The translations under genes were made by a program, and so were the position numbers. From positions 18,910,001 to 18,974,000 of the forward strand of contig OZ017797.1 of NCBI GenBank assembly GCA_963969395.1: DNA of 64,000 bases, read 5' to 3'. The stretch is from Pseudoscleropodium purum. Its lineage: Eukaryota; Streptophyta; Bryopsida; Hypnales; Brachytheciaceae. The notes under the pieces were generated by a model. That model was not told the origin of the DNA, did not search any database, and worked only from the letters and a program-made list of their open reading frames with translations. This document shows, one piece after another, positions 13,001 through 52,820 of the stretch. Numbering within the stretch: the stretch's first letter is position 1; the number at the start of each line of letters is the position of its first letter.

Positions 13001-16000
13001 GCCAGACGCGACTGATAAGGAGATCGAGGAAGCTTGCAAAGCGGCTAATGCACACTCTTTCATCTCACTCTTTCCAGAGGGCTACAACACGCAGGTTACT
13101 AACTGCTGAGCGTAAACAATTGAGCTGCTTCGCTTCTAATCCCTCCGTTCCGAAATAAGTGTCTGCAACGTTGTTGAAAACTTTTGATACCAATTTCATT
13201 GATCATATTGTGAAAAACATAAATTCAGAAAGGTCCAAATTTTTTACCACCAGAATCAATGAAGAGCATTGCATGTGTTCATTGCAATCTAAATATAATC
13301 GAACAGAAAAGAGTCTCCATATGACCTACTCAAAACATCCTTAAAAAGCATGAGGTTCAATTAGGACTCTTATTTCGGATATTTGCACTTAAGAGAGATC
13401 GTGATGCTCTAGTTTGGCTCCCGGTTGGGCTGAATCGCTCGTATTTTGATGTCCAGGTTGGTGAGCATGGCGTGCAAATGTCCGGTGGACAAAAGCAAAG
13501 AATAGCCATCGCAAGAGCCAATCTCAAGAACCCTAAGATCCTGCTCCTTGACGAGGCCACGAGCGCTCTAGACGCAAGCTCGGAGCAGATAGTGCAAGAG
13601 GCTCTCGACAATGCGATGGTGGGGCGAACCACAGTGGTGGTGGCGCACAGGCTTTCCACAATTCGAAACGCAAACACCATTGCTGTTATTCAGAATGGCA
13701 CCATTGTCGAAATGGGAAACCACGACAAACTGATGGCGTTCGGTAACGGTGCCTACGTTGATCTTGTTCGTCATCAGGAAATGGCTCGTTCGGATGAGCG
13801 AAGCGCTTTGTTGCGATCCAGGTCTGCCCATGACAAGTCTGACAGGCATTCGATGAGGTCAAGCAGGAGACTGAGCCGGCAGCCTAGCTTTGCATCTGAT
13901 GGTGAGAGGGGCTCTTTCAGGAGCTCTATCATGGGCTCTTTCAGAGGATCTTTCAGAGGCTCCTTCAGGAGAATCGAAGCTGGTCCTCCGCAAGCTGCCA
14001 CAATGTGGCGGTTGCTAAAGATTAACAAGCCCGAATGGGGCTATGGCGTCGTGGGCGCTTGTGGTTCCGCTCTCCAAGGGCTTGTGAACCCCGGGATTTC
14101 CTATATTCTCAGCAGTGTCCTGTATCAGTACTATGATCCCAGGAAAGGCCACATGACGAGGGAGATCGCGAGGTATGCATTGCTCTGTATTGGGCTGGGA
14201 ACCGCCGGTCTGATTGGAAGCTTCTTCCAGCACACGTTTTTCGGTATCATGGGCGAGAATTTGGTGAAGCGCGTCCGAGAATTGATGTTTGCTAGTAAGC
14301 TCTCATCGACTTCTATTCTTCTAATGAGCAATTTCGTTTTTCGAATGTTTTTTTTTGAGTTTCTGTGTGTAGACATGCTGTGGTGGGAATCAATAAATCT
14401 CAGTTTTACATGGGGTTTATTTTTGGTTTTAAATTGAATCAAGTGAGGTGAGCATTCAGGTATGCTGAAAAACGAGGTGAGCTGGTTCGATGCTGACGAG
14501 AACAACAGCTCGCAGGTGTCTGCTCGCTTAGCAGCGGATGCCACCACAGTGAAGGGTGCCATTAGTGAGCGCATTTCCATCATTGTGCAAAATGTCACCC
14601 TCATAGTGACTGTTTGTGCCATCACGATTTCGCTGCAGTGGAAAATGGCCTTTGTTATTCTTTGCACGTTCCCGCTTCAAGTATGCGCTACAGTTGTGGA
14701 GGTAATCACTTCAGATCCATCACTTCGCTGTATGCAACTGCCTGGTCAGATGGCAGGGGGGGTGAGTAAAGGTTGGACTAGTCACGTTTTGGATTACAAT
14801 CTCGTTTTATTATTGTCTCGACTTCTGATGACCAGATTGGGTGGATTGTGCAGCAAATGTTTCTGCGGGGGTTCTCAGGAGACGTTGCGTCTGCTCAAGC
14901 TCGGGCCAGCATGGTAGCTGGGGAGGGTGTAACCAACATCCGCACTATTGCTGCCTTCAATGCCGAGGATAGAGTTATTAAGCTTTTTGAACACGAACTT
15001 GAGGCCCCCATGAAGAGGGGATTTCTGCGTGGCCAGGTATGACACTGAAGTTTGATGTTGTCCAGGTTCTTTCCAAGTTTACGTTTGCTCAACAAACTAA
15101 GAACTAATTTCATCCTCTGTTGAAGATTGTCCCAGATGCTCTATGGAACAATCTAAGTTCACAGACGTGCTTGAGGGTCTTTGTGTTTAGAAGCTCCAAG
15201 CATCGGCAAATGCGATAATAGCAAATTTCATTAAAACGGCATATGAAATCCGCCACTTTTAGAACGGTTGGTCTCAACATCTAGGACAGGTATAGATATA
15301 AAACCGCCAAATTTCAAGAATGCCGCCATTTTAACGAAATTCACTATGATAGAAATCTGAAACTCGAGTGGAGGCTCAGATATGAATTTAGATTGTTGTG
15401 TCTCTTTACGTATTTAATAAAGAGTTTCTTGTTATCAGGTTGCAGGAATTGGGTACGGTGTTTCACAACTCGTCCTGTTTTTTTCCTACGCAATGGGATT
15501 ATGGTACGGTGCTGTGTTGGTGAAGAGAGGTGAATCCGATTTCCCAAACGTCATCAAAGTGTTCATGATTCTCATCATAGCTGCATTTGCCGTAGCCGAA
15601 ACGCTTTCGCTAGCACCAGATCTGATCAAAGGACGTCAAGCACTGCTATCAGTGTTCCACGTCCTCGATCGCGTCACCACAATCAATGCCGACGACCCTG
15701 ACGCTGAAGTCGTCAACACTATAAAAGGGGACATCGAACTGAAGCATGTGGCATTTGCATACCCAACGCGTCCAGATGCCTTGATCTTCAAGGACTTGAA
15801 CCTCAAAGTGAGGGCAGGGCGTTCGCTGGCGCTAGTGGGCTCTAGTGGGTCCGGTAAGAGCTCCGTCATTGCACTCTTGGAGAGATTCTACGATCCTTTG
15901 TCGGGACGCATCCTCATGGACGGGAAAGACATTCGGATGATCAACTTGAGGAGCTTGCGCAGGAGAATCGCGCTTGTCTCACAGGAACCCGCTCTCTTCG

Positions 16001-16716
16001 CCACCACAATCTACGAAAACATCTTGTATGGACGAGAGGGTGCCACTGAACAGGAAGTGCATTCAGCAGCCATGGCGGCCAATGCGCACACTTTCATCAG
16101 CGCACTTCCTGACAGTTACAACACCCAAGTGGGTGAGCGAGGAGTGCAACTCTCGGGGGGTCAGAAGCAACGAGTTGCCATTGCTCGAGCTGTGTTGAAA
16201 AACCCGGCTGTGCTGCTGCTAGACGAAGCCACAAGCGCCCTTGATTCCGAGTCTGAAAAGATTGTTCAAGAAGCTCTAGATCGGCTCATGCAAGTACGTT
16301 CATCTCCTTTCCAATTCCCAGATTTCTCTGTCAATTCTCAGCTTGATATATGTTTTTTTGCCTGTGCCTAGATAACCCTTTAAGGCTTGAATACTTTTTG
16401 GAACTTTTGTACATTTTCGCTTATATCTTTGTATGAGCATACTGTTTCCATCAAATGGATCAAAAGATTCCAATATCAGTTTTGGTGAATGAAACATTAT
16501 CACACACTATTATCACTGACTGGTGCTGGTGATTCCGTTTAGGGCCGGACATCTGTGGTAGTGGCACATCGACTTTCGACCATTAGGAATGCAAACAGTA
16601 TAGCAGTAATCCAAGAAGGCACAGTTATTGAGGAGGGTTCACACGACAAACTCCTTCAGATACCCGATGGCGCTTATTCACTCTTGGTTCGCTTACAGCA
16701 ACATGACTCACAGTAA
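10094..16716 (+). CDS. ABCB: full-size ABC transporter, B subfamily (MDR/P-glycoprotein, ABCB1/ABCB19-like)
   Basis: Twelve exons: 10094-10480, 10580-10634, 10783-10958, 11071-11271, 11921-12180, 12466-12782, 12871-13094, 13457-14294, 14460-14701, 14854-15036, 15439-16293, 16543-16716. All introns are GT-AG and phases agree, giving 1303 residues, the normal full-size ABCB length. Order is TMD1, NBD1, linker, TMD2, NBD2. NBD1 has Walker [10 protein letters not shown] (about 444-452), signature MSGGQ (548-552) and Walker B ILLLDE (Asp572, Glu573). NBD2 has GSSGSGKSS (1095-1103), LSGGQ (1199-1203) and LLLDE (Asp1223, Glu1224), so both ATP sites look intact. The family exports organic substrates by ATP hydrolysis, usually at the plasma membrane; in plants the ABCB1/19 group moves auxin, but the substrate here is not shown. 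The linker (about 650-715) is Arg/Ser-rich with RRLSRQPS and four GSFR units. An in-frame ATG at 10055 is an alternative start; I prefer 10094 (MGRSNDDDD). Confidence 0.93.
13141..13379. mobile_element. Stowaway-like MITE in ABCB intron 7
   Basis: Starts CCCTCCGTTCCGAAATAAGT and ends with the inverse core (CTTATTTCGGA), a terminal pattern typical of plant Stowaway-type MITEs derived from Tc1/mariner elements. Internal blocks TTGATCATATTG, a GARGARCATTRCATG-like run and CTCAAAACAWCCTTAAAAA recur at 46803-47050. It sits wholly inside the 13095-13456 intron and leaves the splice sites untouched. The outermost bases of the right terminus seem lost. Confidence 0.75.
15208..15352. repeat. small imperfect inverted repeat in ABCB intron 10
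   Basis: The left arm (GATAATAGCAAATTTCATTA then AAACGGCAT) pairs with the right arm (ATGCCGCCATTTTAACGAAA then TTCACTATGAT). The arms are about 36-40 bp with several mismatches around a short spacer that is itself partly palindromic. It looks like a tiny MITE or foldback insertion. Splice signals at 15037 and 15438 are outside it. Confidence 0.6.
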
Positions 16717-34003: not shown

Positions 34004-35781
34004 GGGGTCTTCTGGCAGCAGGCTCCGTCGTCGTGCCTTGGTATAGGGCTTTCCCTTCCCTTCTGCGGGTTTTGCTGTCGGAGTTCGCCCCGTCCTGCGG
34101 ATTTCGTCTCGGTTTGCGTGCGCGAGCTTACGATTTTCAGACTCCGGTGAGCGATTCTGTCATTTCTGGACGTTTTGTGACCGTTTTTGGTTGCGGAATG
34201 GGGGAAAAGCTCATTTCGTTGGCGCTGAGCTGGAGTGAGATATGGCGATTGATCTGTGTCGTCTGTGAGTAGTGTGTGTCTGTTTCCGTTTCGTGACGTT
34301 CCTTTTGCGAAGTATCTTCTCTTGTGTAGGGTTAGTGTTGGAGTGAGCTTTCTCCTCTGCTCGCTTGCTCTTCAGTGATATTTATTTAGAGGGGCAAGAA
34401 TGCCGTTGTGGTCAGTAGCGAATTGAGAAGGAAGGAGGTTGCATTCGCGAGACCGTGTCGGTGTTGGACGTGACTGAGAGAGGTGATTATTTGCATTGCA
34501 CGTCAGTGTGCTATTATTCGACACGTTTTGGTGTAGCGAATGCGCGAGTGACTCGTCCGTAAGCTCTGTTCTGCTGTCCGTCGTGACTCGTTCCGCTGTG
34601 CGTCGATATATCGGCAGCATGCTGCTCGTGCGGAGGTGACGAGTAGGTGAGGTTTACAGAGATTGTCAGCGTGGAAGGATTTTTTCTCGAAACATTTTGT
34701 TTCTACAACGGCCCTTGAGTAACTTGTATTGACGAGGTTTTCTGTAGTGTTTTTGTTACGAGACGCAGCTGAGTTGGAAGATGTAGAGCTCGCTTGCTGC
34801 AGCGCGTGTTTTAGTTCCCGCTTGTTCTGGACCCTTTGGTAGGACTTGAGAGAATCCAAGTTTGGTTTATGTAACAGCGCATGAGTTTTTGTGAGTGTTA
34901 ATTTGTTCCCTTTGTTGGGTGTGTTTATTTTATCAACGAGGTATGGAACTGAAGCTCTTGTTGTATCGGATTCGGGTCGGTTTTGCTTTGTCCAACCATA
35001 TCCCTTTATATTGTTTGAGTATTTGTAGATTACTACTATTTTGTCTTGGTTATTTTGGAACTGGATGCTCCACATGAGGTGTCTTAGTCGTTACCATATG
35101 TACTTGTCTTTGTACTTGTCTTATCCATTTAACGTCGTTCGTCTCCTTTTCTCATTTCATAGTGCTTGTGTTCTTGTCAAATTATCGAAGATTTACATCG
35201 CAGGCAATCTTTTACAGTAGTAATCAATGCACCGTGAGTAACTATTCATTGTCAGATTTCACGTGCAAGGCTATCTAGGCCCTGCATGCTGTTCGGGTCG
35301 ATGTCCTATCATTTCGCGTGGTAGACGTCCTTTCTTCCGATTGTTTTTAAATTGTTGTGGAAGGTTGGATTTCCAATTTTTAGTTTGTTTAGTTTGTTTT
35401 CCTTGTATGTTGATCAAATGGTTTGTCGTCTGTGATTGCTTGCATTGACACATTGACTTGCCTTCTGGAATCGCACAGCAGCAATTTAGAGATTTTCCGA
35501 CATGTATGATTCCATATGTATTTATAGTCTTATGTATGTGTGCGCAGGATTAATTGGGTGCAATCACGAGGCCACAGCTACGGACGTGCACAGGACGATT
35601 ATCTGTCTAAGCGTTTGTTGATGAAATTTCTCTTTCTGACTTTTCCAACGAGTGACCCTTTATCCTGTCTGGAAGAAATTCTGGTTAATACCGGATACAA
35701 CTTTGGATTTGGTCCTTGAAGCACCACTCCAATTTCTTCTCGTATGCATCGGTAGTAGTTCGTACAGAAGCTAAATTAAGG
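34004..35781 (+). promoter_or_regulatory. probable promoter, 5' leader and leader intron of the EF-hand/TPR gene
   Basis: A GC-rich block (34004-34146) ends in a consensus-like donor (ACTCCG then GTGAGC, GT at 34147). T-rich DNA with little coding character follows to an acceptor-like TGTGCGCAG at 35539-35547. That would make a leader intron of about 1.4 kb, a common arrangement in plants, but no transcript is available. Short open frames in this stretch show no domains. Confidence 0.4.
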
Positions 35782-38700
35782 ATGGAAAACGGTCAGGAGA
35801 CAAGTGTCAGGTCTCTGAAGGTTCGAGGCATTTTCAACCAATTTGACCGAAATGAAGATGGCCACCTTAACAGGAACGAAATGGCGCACTTGGTGATTGC
35901 TGTCAATCCCCGGGTCAAGTTCAGTAAAGAGCAGATCGAGGCCATTCTTGACGAAGTGTTCAGAACTTATGGCGAATTTATCGATGGGGTGAAAGGTTTG
36001 AGCTTTGAGGGCTTGTTACGGACTTATGATGATGGAGCTGGTGATGTGGACAGGGATTTCGATGCCCTGGGATTGCAGTTACAAACACCTGTTAAGCAAG
36101 CCGTGGAAGAATCACCTACATTGCCTGCAGAAACTCCTACTGCTGAACCTAGTCCTCGGCCGAAGGCATCACCTACGGTTGAGCCTTCTGCATCGGTGGT
36201 GAAACCCCCGTCGTCGATTGCAAATGAAAGTACGGGTCCGGGGAGCAGGAGGATATCGAGGATTCCTGAATGGGCCAAGGCTCCAAACAATGGAATCGAA
36301 TTTGAGAATACCTTTCAGTTGTTAGAGGACTTGGAGATAACGCTGAAGAAGCAAGACATGAAAATCGAAGGTAAGCGAAAGCAGCGAGAGGACAAGAAGG
36401 GGGCTGGATTGAATGGGCTGGATTCAACAAACTGGGAAGACAGCACGGAGCAAGGTGAAGGGACTAGGGGACCACGTGGGGAGGGAGTGTTGGGGGCAGA
36501 TTTTGGCGTTTTTAAAAAGGAACTTACGGATTTGCGTGAGAAAGCGGGGAAAGCGCATACTCCAGATGAGGCATTTGATGGTCACATGGCCATGGGGAAA
36601 AGTTTATTTGAACGTCGCTGGCACGAAGAAGCTCTGATCAGCTTTAGACTTGCAGTTCAGCTGAAGCCACAAGATGTGCGGTCTCATTTCTTAGTGGGCA
36701 ATGCACTTTATTCTCTTGGTCAGTACAAGGACGCCTGGATGTCGTATCAGAAGGCACTTGAGGCAGGAGAAGAGAACGCTCAGGCGTGGGAGGGTATTCT
36801 TCCACAGGTAAAGAAATATTCTTCTGGCCTGCCATCTTTCTGCGCGGAGGTCGCACTCTTCTCTAATGCGCAAGTAGATTAGACAATTCCATATTATCAT
36901 AGTAACATGTTCTACTATCTGGTTTTGTAATTGGTGATCAGCAACTTGAGTAGTTTATTCCTCCCCGACTTCTGAAAGTTGGTGATAATGATACTGTTAA
37001 ATGTCAAGTTTCATTTTTATCTTCCCTTGGTGAGTTTTAGTGGAATTGTGGAGTTCCTGTAGTATTTCTGAATGATGCCATCTCTGCCTTTGCCAGGTAC
37101 ATGTCAACCTAGGAATTGCCCTCGAGGGGGAGGGTATGCTGATGTGTGCCTGTGATCATTATCGAGAGGCAGCTATACTCAACCCTCGTCACTATCGTGC
37201 GTTGAAACTGTTGGGAAGTGCCCTGTTTGGATTGGGTGAATACCGAGCAGCTCAAAAATGTCTTGAAGAAGCATTGGTGTTAGAACCGAATTATCCAGAT
37301 GCTCATTGTGACCTTGGTTCGGCTCTACATGCTGTACACGAAGATGAGATGGCCATTTCGGAGTACCAAAAGGCTATTGATTTGAAGCCCAACCATGTGG
37401 ATGCACTCTACAACCTGGGTGGATTATTGAAAGATTCTGAAAGGTTTGAACTCTGAGCATAATCTGGAAATGCAATCAGCAGGCTGCTTTAGGTTCATCG
37501 TGAGAACCTGTAATTGTGACACTTTTTTCAACTCGTTAGGACCTACTTGATGCAGGTACAAGAGGGCTGCTGAAATGTATGCAAATGTGCTTCAGCTAAG
37601 GCCCCGTGACTGGAGAGCGCAGCTGAACCGCGCAGTCTGCTTGTTGGGAGATGGAGAGCAAGAGGAGGCTAAGAAGGCGTTTAAGGAGGCTTTCAGAATG
37701 ACTAATCGCTTGGATATTTATGATGCCGTCAAGCACTTGAAGCAGAGCGAGAAACGGCCAAAGAATCTAAACGCAGTGGTAGCAAGTGCTGAGCAGAGTG
37801 CCACTGGTCGGCGCACCCTTACACATGGTATGCATTCCCTTCATAGCTGATGTTGTCAGGTATTAAAAACTTGGTTTTGCAGCAGAGATGTCAAGTTGTT
37901 CCAAGCGGCTCAACAAATTCTCAATCCTGCATTTTCAATACTTGTGAGTCAGTCATAACCAGTTGGAAAAGCTCACGTCGTGGCTTATAACATCCTGGCT
38001 GTGTTCTCTTGTTGGATGCATATGTCAGGCTTACGATTCGTGTTCAAGCTTTGCCTCTTGATTTATTGCGGTTCAAATGCATGATCAAGTTCTGTGAACA
38101 ATATCACTGATTTGTTGTTTTTGACCCTTCGCACCCTCAGATCCGAGCTTTATTCAGGTGGATAGGACCCGATTCAGGCAGGCAAGCAATAACACAACAC
38201 CACGGGAGTATTTGGGTTGCGCACTCAACATCCGCAAATTTCAGAAACACACAAGACTCAACACTTGTGACATAAATACATTATCAGCGGAGATAGATAA
38301 GAGTGGGTATCTTCCTGTAGAGAAAACTGGTGCCCCACCCTCTCAAAATGAAAAAGTGGTTCGCAAGGCTGAGCTGGAGAAAATTTTACCTCGTCTCATC
38401 CAAAACCTCAATCCAGAAACCTTTCAGGTCTGCTAATCCTACCCTGGTAAAGTTGTTGACTTATGTACTTGATGTAAAGTAGTGCACTTCTTGATGGGTT
38501 ATTAATTTCTGTACATTCCAAGGTCTTGCATATTTCAGGATTATGCCTCTTGCAATCTGTTAGTGCTATGTCGGTTGAGCACTTATTGAGGGTGTAATTT
38601 GGCTGCAGAGTGCTGTAAGAGCTATAAACGAGCGCATCTTGTCTGTTCTAGACCGAAGTGGGTCAGGCAGAGTCGACGTTGGTATGTTCTTTGCAGTGTT

Positions 38701-47494: not shown

Positions 47495-48673
47495 TCAGGT
47501 TGGACACAGGTTAATTTGAGGTTGGAAAAACAAGCCGTCGTTGAAAAATGTTCCATGATTCTCAGCCACAACGTCATGGCGACTCCAACGCCGTTTACTC
47601 AAGTCATACAGCATCCCAACCCAGATTTTGCGGTATGTGGCTGACAACAAGAGATCCTTCCCACACTCGTGGATGACCAATTGACTCTGTAGTAGAGAAG
47701 CATTGCTTATTTCTTCGACCTCCAGATAGTAGCACAACACATTCAATGGAACTTCTGCGACCAGTTCCCAAGAGATTTGACTTTTTTCCTTCTTGTACAT
47801 GCGAACGAAAGTAATGGGATCCACAGCATTGTAGTCCACTGCATAGAGGCTAGATTCTCCAAGAGTAGGGTATCCCCTTATGGTGTGCTCATGAGGCATT
47901 AGGTTGGGATTGCTGGACGCAATCACGCCAGTCCTCAAGGCCAGACTATCGCAATCAACCAGCTTCCCCTGGTTCAGGTCAAACACAGTCGATTCATTTT
48001 CATCCAAGCGTACCAAACTGCGACAGAATATGATTTCATTGCTTGAATCGGCGTAAGCTATCAGCTCCCTTGGCACTGACACAATGGACCATTCCTCGGA
48101 ACCTGAGTCGAGTATTTGCACCAAATCGGAGTTCTTCCAGTGCACTACCACCTTGTACGTCTTGGAATCCACGTTCACTTTCAGTCCCACGTGCACATAG
48201 CAATAAAAATCCCGATCCCCTGTGTCTTCTGTTGGAATATCCAACGGCCCGAGAGGCATAAAAGTACCCCGGTGTGTGACGATGTTGACGACTGCCAGAG
48301 GCAAGTTTGGAGCAAAGAGAAGTGAATCGTGGGGCCTGCCTGCACCACTGAGCAGAATAAGCCCACCGCTGGCACTCACTGGTCTCCAGTATTGAACTGA
48401 AGTTGGTAGATGGACTTGGATCCATTTCTGCATGGAAAACGCATAGAACCAGGGATAGGGTTCATGAGGAGACTCGCGGAGGAAGAAAGGCTCTCCTTCA
48501 AGAACTCTGGAGTCGGTGTAGGCTCTCGTTGCCTTGGAGCACCCGTAGCGAAAGCGGACAAAGTCTAGGAGAGATAGTTTTTCCAAAATCGCTTGGATAA
48601 CTTTAACTTCTAATTCTAGAAATCTCGGAAAGATGATTGGTGGCATGAAAGGGTGTCTGCTAACGATATCCAT
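47495..48673 (-). CDS. F-box protein (Kelch/beta-propeller-like C-terminal region)
   Basis: This single uninterrupted exon encodes 392 residues. The N-terminus (about 17-58) has the F-box pattern (LELEVKVIQAILEKLSLLDF followed by VRFRYGCSKATRAYT), where the Leu/Ile/Val positions and the C-terminal basic/Cys segment fit Skp1-binding F-boxes. The following region (WRPVSASGGLILLSGAG, then repeats of hydrophobic strands ending in W or Y) resembles the degenerate Kelch-type propeller found in many plant F-box proteins. Such proteins recruit targets to SCF ubiquitin ligases; the target is unknown. The intronless structure and length are typical of plant F-box genes. ATG at 48673 is the first in frame and leaves a complete F-box. 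Confidence 0.8.
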   Translation of the reverse strand: MDIVSRHPFMPPIIFPRFLELEVKVIQAILEKLSLLDFVRFRYGCSKATRAYTDSRVLEGEPFFLRESPHEPYPWFYAFSMQKWIQVHLPTSVQYWRPVSASGGLILLSGAGRPHDSLLFAPNLPLAVVNIVTHRGTFMPLGPLDIPTEDTGDRDFYCYVHVGLKVNVDSKTYKVVVHWKNSDLVQILDSGSEEWSIVSVPRELIAYADSSNEIIFCRSLVRLDENESTVFDLNQGKLVDCDSLALRTGVIASSNPNLMPHEHTIRGYPTLGESSLYAVDYNAVDPITFVRMYKKEKSQISWELVAEVPLNVLCYYLEVEEISNASLLQSQLVIHECGKDLLLSATYRKIWVGMLYDLSKRRWSRHDVVAENHGTFFNDGLFFQPQINLCPT

Positions 48674-50934
48674 TTGTCAGGCGGGACTCGATCTTGACCG
48701 ATCGATGAGCTTGACTCCTTATAAAGTTTTTTGGCAGAATCTCGTGTACTATCAGGTCAGTCAAGTACGTGAATCGTCTCGGTTCTGGGTGGTCACTCGA
48801 GATAAGATATCGAGATATGTGGTGGATCGATCGTTGTCCACTGTAGAAGAAATCTTGTGACTCCCAGAGAGGGCAAAGCCTCAACAAAATCTGTGAAGGA
48901 AAGTGAAATCAGCACATCAATTAGTCAATATCGATCATGACCACGAGTAGCTGCCGAAGCGGAGAATCCAAAGTCGAGAAACCAATCAAGATTAAAATCT
49001 GAGTCTTATTTACAGGCACGAATCTTAATTAATCCGTCGATCGAACAAATTTCTTGGCCACTGAAGTCGATTGTGAGCATCAAGAACAACTGGGTACTGG
49101 AAATTTGAAACCCAATCAATTTCAATCTAATCAAATTTCAATTCGTTGCAAAGAGGTTTGTAAGGATGGATATCACTCACCTCAGGGTCGAAATATGGAA
49201 GAAGTAACCAAATTAAACTGCAGATACTCTCAAGAAAAACATGCTCATGCGCAAGATTCTTCCGAAAAGGTATTCACTCTGACACTACGTAGTGCGTACA
49301 CAGAAACGCTAGATTGTGAAATCGTCAGAGAAATCTCAAGCATCCGGGATTCAATGTCGCAGGCCGGGAATTGACTCCGTCGGGAGCACTGCACTGAAGG
49401 ATTTTCAGACACTAAAATTCGAGCACCGTATGAGTTGCATCAGTCTGCGTGGCTGCAAATTGCAAGTGGGATTGAATGAGGTGGGCGGGGGGATTCAAAA
49501 ACAACGAAGAACGAAGAAGACGTAGACTATCGATTTGAATTCAAATTGAATAAGGCGCGCATGTTCCTTCACTAAAATTTTGAATTCAAAGCTTGGCCGA
49601 AAATGAATGAGCAATCATTTCTCATCCATTCTATTCCGGTTTCCATCCACGGGCCTGAAAATATGCAACTGATTATAAGGCTACCTCCTAAGTGTAATTT
49701 CATATGTATTAAAGAAGTATTAAAAAAAATTATATAATAGAGATACTTCCTTAGTTCATCTCAAAGATTTGAAATTGTATTTTTTCTTTCACCTCTAATA
49801 ATAAATAAGTATAATTATTATTCAACTAATATTCATAAACTAGTTTTTAGATTGTTTAGCTCTAAAGTAGGGTGTTTTAAATGTAACCCCGCTCTAAAAG
49901 CAACCTCTCATATAGAGGTACATTTTTCTTTCCTCAATGTACCAGAAGTGCACATTTCAAAAAGAGATTGCTTCTAATGACCATTGATTTTCAACTTCAA
50001 AATTTTGTAACTAATTCCAAGAAGGTTCAAAAAATGTGAAATGACTTGGGTTAAGATGCCAATTCCATTTTTCTTCCTATAAAAATTTACTAAAAAATTG
50101 TTTCAATGAATTTAACTTCCCCCAAAATGCAATCAGTTTTTAAAAGATTGCTTTAAGAGCACACTATGTTACATATTAAAGACATAAATTTTGATGCTTT
50201 GCAACACTCCATTTAAATGAACTTGGACATTCAATGTGCATATTAGTACATTAAATAAAATCCACTTCCTTTACAAGTGAATTAATATCTAGATAAAAAA
50301 TCAATTTACAAATAATGTATAATATTTCTTACACAAATGTTATCAATGTTGTTAAATGGATGGTGTTATAAAGGGACATATTTTAAAGTAAAAGGGCCTT
50401 TATTCCATTTCGTAAATGGTGCACTCAAACTTAGTTTGTTCCTTTCTTATTCCAAATCCAAATCCATAGACCAAATTCCTATCCTTAAATCATGTTTAGA
50501 CATGTTGTAAGGTTGGTCTAAAAGGTTGGTTACAAATATTTGTTCAAATTTCATTTGTTGTTTTTATGTTTGGAAATATATTTACAATGATTTAAAAAAG
50601 AAAATTCGGATAGGTTCAATCATTCTAACTTCATTCTATGTGTTGCTTAACCCTACAAGGATGTTGAAGACTAAAAAATATGATGAACAACTTTAAAAGA
50701 AATTGTAAAAATATCCTTACTCATCCATGAATCTAATCATTTTGGGTTGTTATTAACCTTGACAATAAATAAAGTGGCCATGCATTTCCCTAATAACATT
50801 TTTTTCATTAGTATTCATAGGAATTCAATAAGTCTACCTTAATGAAAGGTATACTTATTCCAAAGTGCTACAATATTTAAAGAGGAGTTAAAAGAAGTTG
50901 ACCCATTTTCAACCACTTGAGCAATTATAGGCAT
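48674..50934. other. F-box gene upstream region, then AT-rich intergenic DNA
   Basis: 48674 to about 49650 is moderately GC-rich and probably holds the F-box promoter and leader on the minus strand. A 106-codon frame at 49054-49374 (+) has no recognised domain and starts only at a non-ATG codon. The rest is AT-rich with no gene. Confidence 0.4.
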
Positions 50935-51908: not shown

Positions 51909-52820
51909 ATGAGCGTGTTCGGAGGTTCGGGCGTGGACGCCGTGGGTGCGATGCTTCCTTCCGCGCAGCCGGTGGAGGTCGGTACGCTCCCTTCGTATCC
52001 TGCTGTAGATCCCGTCTCCTCGTATATTGTGTCTCCCGTCTCTCCGTACCCGACGATAGTCGACCCGTTCAAACGGAGGACTGCGCTCCGGGAGTATTTC
52101 CGAGGGCTTCGCGGGGGGGAGAACAAGGAGAACGAGAGAGGGAGTGAAGGGGATGTGAAGTCGCCACCTTCGAGTTTGCCGAAACAGAAAACCCTAGGTC
52201 TGTGTCGGAGACACCCTACCATTGCGGTGTCCGGCGAGGGGATGTTGCGTGATAAGAGGAAATTCAATGCTCCAAGACAGACGCCTGAGAAGCGGCAACG
52301 ACCTGTGGAATCGGACTTCGGGACGGAGCTTCCAAGGAGGCTGGATGTCGGGGACCTGATGGGTTTTGAGGATATAAGTGAGGACGATGTGAACCAGTCA
52401 CTCCTTCAATTTGCGTCGCGGGAGCGTGTGGAATTGGAGAGCCAGGTTCAGGTTAGGGACGAAGCGGAGATTCGGAGGTCGCAGATGGTGTATGCTAGAG
52501 CTAAAGTTGTTTCTCCTTCTGTCAATCGTCAGGCACAAGACTCACAGTCTCTTTCATTCAAGCCACAGACTCCAAATATTCGGAAGCCTCTGACACCAGT
52601 AAATACGAATCGACAAGAGGCAATTCAAGTACATTCTTCCCCAATGCTATTGAATCCTAATTTCTCAGAAGGTATGGAACGCGAAGGTGGCGTTTCGAGT
52701 GAGAGCCTCTTCCAATTAGCCTCTGGGAAACGCTATCAGCCGTCTGCGGCAGCGAAAGCAAGGGCAGCTTCATTGTTCGAATCGGATGCCGAATTTGCAG
52801 ATCTCCTAGGTTTCGAATGA
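51909..52820 (+). CDS. protein of unknown family with a C-terminal BRC-like RAD51-binding motif and a KEN box
   Basis: A single exon of 303 residues. The ATG at 51909 sits in GTCCGCCATGAG, a good plant start context, and the sequence upstream reads like a leader. I do not recognise the family. The protein is polar and probably largely disordered. Near the end (268-293) is FQLASGK, SAAAKARAASLF, then ESD. FxxA at 268-271, ASGK, and Leu289-Phe290 followed by an acid reproduce the two RAD51-contact tetrads of a BRCA2 BRC repeat (FxxA and LFDE) with the same F-to-LF spacing as BRC4. The N-terminal part has RTAL (57-60, D-box-like) and KEN (73-75) in ENKEN, possible APC/C degrons, and basic patches (RDKRKF, PEKRQR) that could direct nuclear import. 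RAD51 binding and cell-cycle turnover are inferences from motifs. Confidence 0.75.
   Translation: MSVFGGSGVDAVGAMLPSAQPVEVGTLPSYPAVDPVSSYIVSPVSPYPTIVDPFKRRTALREYFRGLRGGENKENERGSEGDVKSPPSSLPKQKTLGLCRRHPTIAVSGEGMLRDKRKFNAPRQTPEKRQRPVESDFGTELPRRLDVGDLMGFEDISEDDVNQSLLQFASRERVELESQVQVRDEAEIRRSQMVYARAKVVSPSVNRQAQDSQSLSFKPQTPNIRKPLTPVNTNRQEAIQVHSSPMLLNPNFSEGMEREGGVSSESLFQLASGKRYQPSAAAKARAASLFESDAEFADLLGFE

Follow-up and report, generated by a model that had tools for sequence, protein, structure and literature searches.

A gene of the moss Pseudoscleropodium purum encodes a short protein that ends in a sequence resembling one BRC repeat, the RAD51-binding element of BRCA2. This raises two questions: whether the motif is a genuine BRC repeat and, if so, what kind of protein carries it. 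The gene lies at 51909-52820 on the forward strand of the stretch of 64,000 nucleotides that was analysed here (the window) and codes for 303 residues. It runs in one uninterrupted frame, stop included, from the ATG at 51909 to the TGA at 52818-52820. This ATG is the first in-frame one; none was found further upstream in the open frame. The frame is unbroken over the whole alignment described below, so that no intron is needed and the gene seems to consist of a single exon. The N-terminal region is basic: residues 1-138 contain 21 Lys or Arg residues and have a net charge of +6. A Pfam scan found no domain in the protein. In the AlphaFold2 model, calculated from the alignment of 15 sequences, the mean pLDDT value was 50.1, with just three residues at 70 or higher; at this low confidence the model contained no folded domain, and helices were seen only at residues 53-68, 267-272, and 280-288. 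In other words, neither Pfam nor AlphaFold2 showed a helical/OB DNA-binding domain in the 303 residues, and in this respect the protein does not conform to canonical plant BRCA2. The preliminary description of the locus, a single BRC repeat at the end of a small plant protein, was borne out, and the protein is probably disordered.

The translation of 52710-52787 on the forward strand is FQLASGKRYQPSAAAKARAASLFESD, which corresponds to residues 268-293; the core of the repeat occupies residues 267-291 (52707-52781). The FxxA tetrad is FQLA (residues 268-271; 52710-52721). The Leu at its third position is also found in BRC1, BRC2, and BRC4 of Physcomitrium patens, according to PMC12412785. The dihydrophobic pair L289-F290 (52773-52778) follows at the same spacing from F268 as in human BRC4 (PDB 1n0w_B). 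This means that FQLASGK followed by LF at the BRC4 distance, as pointed out in the preliminary description, is indeed present, and the ASGK stretch between the tetrads is matched as well. The further claim that both tetrads are matched holds for FxxA, whereas LFDE is present only as LF plus nearby acidic residues. The second tetrad reads L-F-E-S: S292 occupies the position of a Glu in BRC4, with acidic residues at 291 and 293. A pattern of two hydrophobic residues, any residue, and Glu or Asp therefore fails at its fourth residue, where Ser is found in 11 of 14 sequences, whereas the hydrophobic pair is there. A BRC repeat defined by FxxA and a dihydrophobic pair is present in the window protein.

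Several other coding regions were observed in the window. An exon of an ABC transporter lies at 15421-16371 on the forward strand (PF00005 at 121 bits; PF00664 below its cut-off), and the frames upstream of it, from about 10013 on the same strand, seem by eye to belong to the same gene. A TPR protein is encoded at 35689-36882 on the forward strand, with PF13414 and PF07719 above and EF-hand matches below their cut-offs; by eye, the frames up to 39434 may be part of this gene. A single-exon frame of 393 residues at 47495-48676 on the reverse strand looked F-box/kelch-like by eye and was negative in the Pfam scan.

A search of 5.8 billion proteins with the window protein gave 14 relatives, with E values from 2.1e-166 to 1.9e-32 and lengths of 241-364 residues. 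Repeated searches, in which the alignment or one of the relatives (P0015) served as the query, returned the same 14 and added none; in these two, scoring was confined to the 7999 and 7994 candidates, respectively, that had most words in common with the query, and proteins longer than 1.75 times the query lay outside the reach of the protein searches. The labels contained no P. patens, Sphagnum, Takakia, or Polytrichum, one of the 14 bearing an organism name. It should be mentioned that the 15 aligned entries are sequences and not species: P0008 and P0009 are near-identical, and so are P0010 and P0012. In the repeat, F268, A271, S272, G273, K274, and E291 are invariant in all 15. Position 289 is Leu in 14 sequences and Met in one, and position 290 is Phe in 13 and Leu in two. 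The four positions proposed at the outset as a check on conservation, F268, A271, L289, and F290, are thus kept in 15, 15, 14, and 13 of the 15 sequences, respectively.

The relative that bears a name, P0014, carries the label Ceratodon purpureus KC19_9G141900. It was found at E 5.7e-57, and its identity to the window protein is 49% across 98% of the latter. A noncanonical BRCA2 without a DNA-binding domain has been described in P. patens (PpBRCA2, Pp6C10_10830) by PMC12412785 (2025), the only title on moss BRCA2 among the matches listed in the literature search. In that paper, homologs are named in Ceratodon (CepurR40.9G141900, CpBRCA2) and in Funaria. The number 9G141900 is common to KC19_9G141900 and CepurR40.9G141900, and P0014 was therefore equated with CpBRCA2. 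Orthology of the window protein to CpBRCA2/PpBRCA2 was established via P0014, that is, by comparison with the Ceratodon sequence alone. The two proteins share one C-terminal BRC repeat, the same conserved blocks, and the lack of a DNA-binding domain. They differ at the start of the repeat (FQTASGKPF in CpBRCA2 and FQLASGKRY in the window protein), and CpBRCA2 has an extra upstream FxxAS-like stretch, FSFASRE. PpBRCA2 is described as a protein of 391 residues encoded by a single exon, disordered by NMR, with a nuclear localization signal (NLS) and four BRC repeats (PMC12412785). By this description it resembles the window protein in its single exon, the lack of a DNA-binding domain, and the C-terminal position of BRC, and probably also in its disorder and in the NLS of the N-terminal region; it is unlike the window protein in having four tandem repeats instead of one.

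It is therefore highly probable (about 0.93) that the window gene is the noncanonical BRCA2 of this moss: a RAD51 mediator that is short and disordered, does not have the canonical DNA-binding domain, and is the ortholog of CpBRCA2 and PpBRCA2. The preliminary description had taken the protein family as unknown and suggested that such a protein would be a different kind of RAD51 regulator. Neither idea was borne out: the family is that of the moss BRCA2 of PMC12412785, which lacks the large DNA-binding domain and whose Ceratodon locus number is found among the relatives, and the window protein is a further member of it. PpBRCA2 binds both RAD51 and single-stranded DNA (ssDNA), and RAD51 foci depend on it (PMC12412785). 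Binding of the window protein to RAD51 is supported by orthology, and its function would be the same as that of its orthologs, including binding of RAD51 and ssDNA and formation of foci.

The genome also contains the putative partner. The assembly that holds the window comprises 313 Mb in 52 contigs, and PF08423 detected in it a RAD51 with an uninterrupted frame (C1:22447053-22447778) as well as another member of the family, split into four pieces, which is probably DMC1. The moss RAD51 was aligned with human RAD51, and the residues were counted by hand. E154, G155, D184, and D187 of the human protein are retained, and Gln occupies the position of E91. The two BRC pockets of RAD51, the FxxA pocket and the second pocket, were compared at seven positions each. 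At these positions, six of the seven residues of the FxxA pocket are the same in the moss and human proteins, with M158L as the difference, whereas five of the seven differ in the second pocket (Y205V, S208A, M251G, R254K, and L255M).

A mechanism can be proposed on this basis. The basic N-terminal half would provide the nuclear signal and, by orthology, hold ssDNA. The single C-terminal BRC repeat would capture RAD51 by mimicking the FxxA contact that RAD51 protomers make with one another, with LF placed in the second pocket. The two parts together would deliver RAD51 to resected DNA ends. Yeast two-hybrid analysis showed that PpBRCA2 self-associates (PMC12412785), and self-association might supply the multivalency that tandem repeats give to other mosses.

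The window protein might instead be a dedicated RAD51 inhibitor or a sequestering decoy with one BRC repeat, in which case the moss would have its true BRCA2 in another protein. Such an activity would be in keeping with the P. patens data: at high concentration, RAD51 filament formation was blocked by PpBRC4 on its own and by the C-terminal part of PpBRCA2 that bears the BRC repeats (PMC12412785). However, CpBRCA2, which has a single BRC repeat as read in P0014, largely restored growth when placed at the P. patens locus of the brca2 mutant, and RAD51 foci were formed in more than 90% of cells (same source). In addition, searches with the protein and with PF09169, PF09103, and PF09104 found no other BRCA2-like gene in the genome. 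The window protein gave one full match, which means one clear gene copy. A second match, on C48 (E 0.026; 25% identity; one internal stop), was taken as chance; the first 400 bases of its locus were read. The best score in the genome for the BRCA2 helical domain (PF09169) was 16 bits against a cut-off of 25, OB1 (PF09103) gave no match, and the best score for OB3 (PF09104) was 18.4 bits against a cut-off of 24. The weak helical and OB3 matches were rejected by eye, the stretches holding short open frames only. This search covered only these three parts of the BRCA2 DNA-binding domain. Its sole control was one of the method, within the same genome, where RPA-type OB folds (PF08646) were found in pieces at two places. 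An inhibitor or decoy is thus very improbable.

The number of repeats bears on a second alternative, in which the protein would be a shortened BRCA2 that has lost repeats and works poorly. Four repeats in P. patens, three in P0015, and one in the window protein could be read as such a loss. However, a single BRC repeat is found in 14 of the 15 sequences, among them Ceratodon P0014, and the window gene has an intact frame and conserved blocks. P0015 contains three tandem BRC units in residues 260-355, spaced by 34 residues, the third of which has Ala for Gly after FxxA. Between its units 1 and 2, 23 of 28 residues are the same in the core and 4 of 6 in the linker, as would result from a tandem duplication, whereas unit 3 shares 20-21 core residues and no linker residues with them. 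BRC cores of different sequences are equally alike (19-25 of 28). In P. patens, PpBRC3 does not bind RAD51, which was ascribed to a Gly-to-Ala change (PMC12412785); since the third unit of P0015 shares this change, P0015 might come from a relative of P. patens. P0015 has three repeats and P. patens four, against a single one in the other 14 sequences; this distribution suggests that the tandem array arose in one lineage of mosses and is derived and not needed. A poorly working remnant is accordingly rated lower still than a decoy.

An FxxAS-like stretch, F[QS]FAS[RM]E, was observed upstream of the repeat in P0008, P0009, P0011, P0013, P0014, and P0016. The corresponding stretch of the window protein is QFASRE (residues 167-172; 52407-52424, forward strand); the FxxAS form is present in these six of the 15 sequences only and not in the window protein. 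It was not counted as a second BRC repeat: by eye, LF is missing in all six sequences at the distance typical of BRC, P0011 having VV in its place. The stretch is possibly a decayed BRC repeat.

The repeat was further examined by scores and profiles. The best ungapped matches of human BRC4 (7 of 28 identities) and BRC8 (8c3n_B; 10 of 25 identities) to the 303-residue protein both fall on this site, which ranks first among 30109 (BRC4) and 34589 (BRC8) stop-free window positions in six frames. The Pfam BRCA2 repeat profile (PF00634), recommended as a check in the preliminary description, failed to match either the whole protein or its C-terminus at E values up to 10. Among the 15 family members it gave three weak matches, the best at E 0.2; when five members were scanned separately, P0008 alone was matched, at 9.6 bits, which is below the cut-off of 20.3, and none was found in the three-unit P0015. 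No match was found across the whole genome either, although the BRC repeat of this gene is present there, and PF00634 is therefore blind to it. P. patens BRCA2 was likewise reached by HHpred and not by PSI-BLAST (PMC12412785). The failure of the profile is a detection limit rather than the absence of a defining residue. A PDB sequence search with the C-terminus found only a bacterial regulator at E 0.65 and worse, and a PDB search with a profile of the moss BRC repeats found no chain. That the motif is a chance look-alike in an unrelated disordered protein is the least probable of the alternatives: 234 of 20000 shuffled proteins attained the BRC4 score and Pfam misses the motif, but the BRC8 score was attained by only 1 of 20000, and the motif forms a conserved unit at the C-terminus of all 15 sequences, triplicated in one, of a family that includes the Ceratodon gene with the CpBRCA2 number. 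The motif at residues 268-293 is real: it is a BRC repeat.

Identification of the gene as the moss BRCA2 is favored by the 14 relatives, the one frame, the conserved BRC residues, the one gene copy, and the presence of RAD51 in the genome. Against it are the lack of Pfam BRC and PDB matches, the Ser at the fourth tetrad residue, and the five differences in the second RAD51 pocket. The affinities reported for P. patens also count against it: single PpBRC peptides bind RAD51 at 0.4-0.8 μM, far more weakly than the four-repeat array at 4.3 nM, and the 100-fold gain through cooperation of the four repeats is stressed in PMC12412785.

Conservation is not limited to the repeat. The most conserved 15 residues are 116-130, KRKFNAPRQTPEKRQ (52254-52298; forward strand, as are the segments below), in which 14 of 15 columns are invariant in all 15 sequences and E127 is kept in 14. 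Its conservation is 3.99 bits against 2.72 for the protein, followed by residues 89-103 (3.67), 50-64 (3.60), and the start of the BRC repeat at 267-281 (3.56). The N-terminal segment 53-68, PFKRRTALREYFRGLR (52065-52112), is conserved and predicted as a helix at low confidence. A KEN-box-like tripeptide at residues 73-75 (52125-52133) is present in all 14 sequences that cover the position. The conserved basic segment KQKTLGLCRRH (residues 92-102; 52182-52214) possibly contacts ssDNA, and IRKPLTPVN (residues 224-232; 52578-52604) is also conserved in the alignment. By its letters, KRKFNAPRQTPEKRQ seems to combine a bipartite NLS-like arrangement, a CDK-type TPxK site, and, loosely, a TR2-like RKFNAPR. 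A bipartite NLS would account for its two clusters of basic residues, whereas the invariant spacer FNAPRQTP would be left without an explanation. TPxK at residue 125 is present in all 15 sequences. The KEN tripeptide as a degron and T125 as a CDK site are guesses; a word search of the accessible text of PMC12412785 found no mention of either.

In the human TR2 core KAFQPPR, K3296, F3298, Q3299, P3301, and R3302 bind the acidic patch groove of RAD51 (PMC10622577). RKFNAPR has R, F, N, P, and R at those places and scores higher against TR2 than any other heptamer of the protein. The TR2 likeness of residues 117-123 was nevertheless within chance: its score was attained in 3891 of 20000 shuffles of the whole protein and in 2227 of 20000 shuffles of the block. 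When the exon-14 motif KVFVPPF was used for comparison, RKFNAPR came only 8th, with 19990 of 20000 shuffles attaining its score. Both prolines of that motif sit in a pocket of DMC1, and the pair sets the shape of the peptide backbone; RAD51 is predicted to behave alike (PMC11436757). The KxFxPP core of TR2 and PhePP is incomplete in the moss protein: RKFNAPR has the Phe and the second Pro without the first. The moss protein has no counterpart of the S/T-P at the place of human S3291 or of the N-terminal part of TR2, and the Gln at the E91 place of moss RAD51 counts against the likeness. In the accessible text of PMC12412785, CTRB and PhePP motifs are mentioned for human BRCA2 only, and the literature search found no other moss paper on FxPP with RAD51. 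It is doubtful that KRKFNAPRQTPEKRQ goes beyond a nuclear signal and forms a reduced TR2-type brace that holds assembled RAD51 by its acidic patch (D184/D187), with CDK acting as the switch at T125 and the KEN box setting the protein level. If this were true, 303 residues would hold a complete minimal BRCA2 cycle: ssDNA holding, RAD51 delivery by one BRC repeat, and filament stabilization.

Drosophila BRCA2 is much larger than the window protein. The two are alike in having BRC without a recognizable OB fold and unlike in the three BRC repeats of the fly protein (PMC8121103). A single BRC repeat is also found in C. elegans BRC-2 and Ustilago Brh2; however, these retain one and two OB folds, respectively, and the window protein none (same source).

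These results suggest that the moss sequences compared here usually have one BRC repeat. As RAD51 foci are rescued by CpBRCA2, one repeat seems to be enough in vivo. With 303 residues, fewer than the 394 of C. elegans BRC-2 (PMC8121103), the protein would be a handy minimal BRCA2, and attention is drawn to its conserved blocks outside the BRC repeat.
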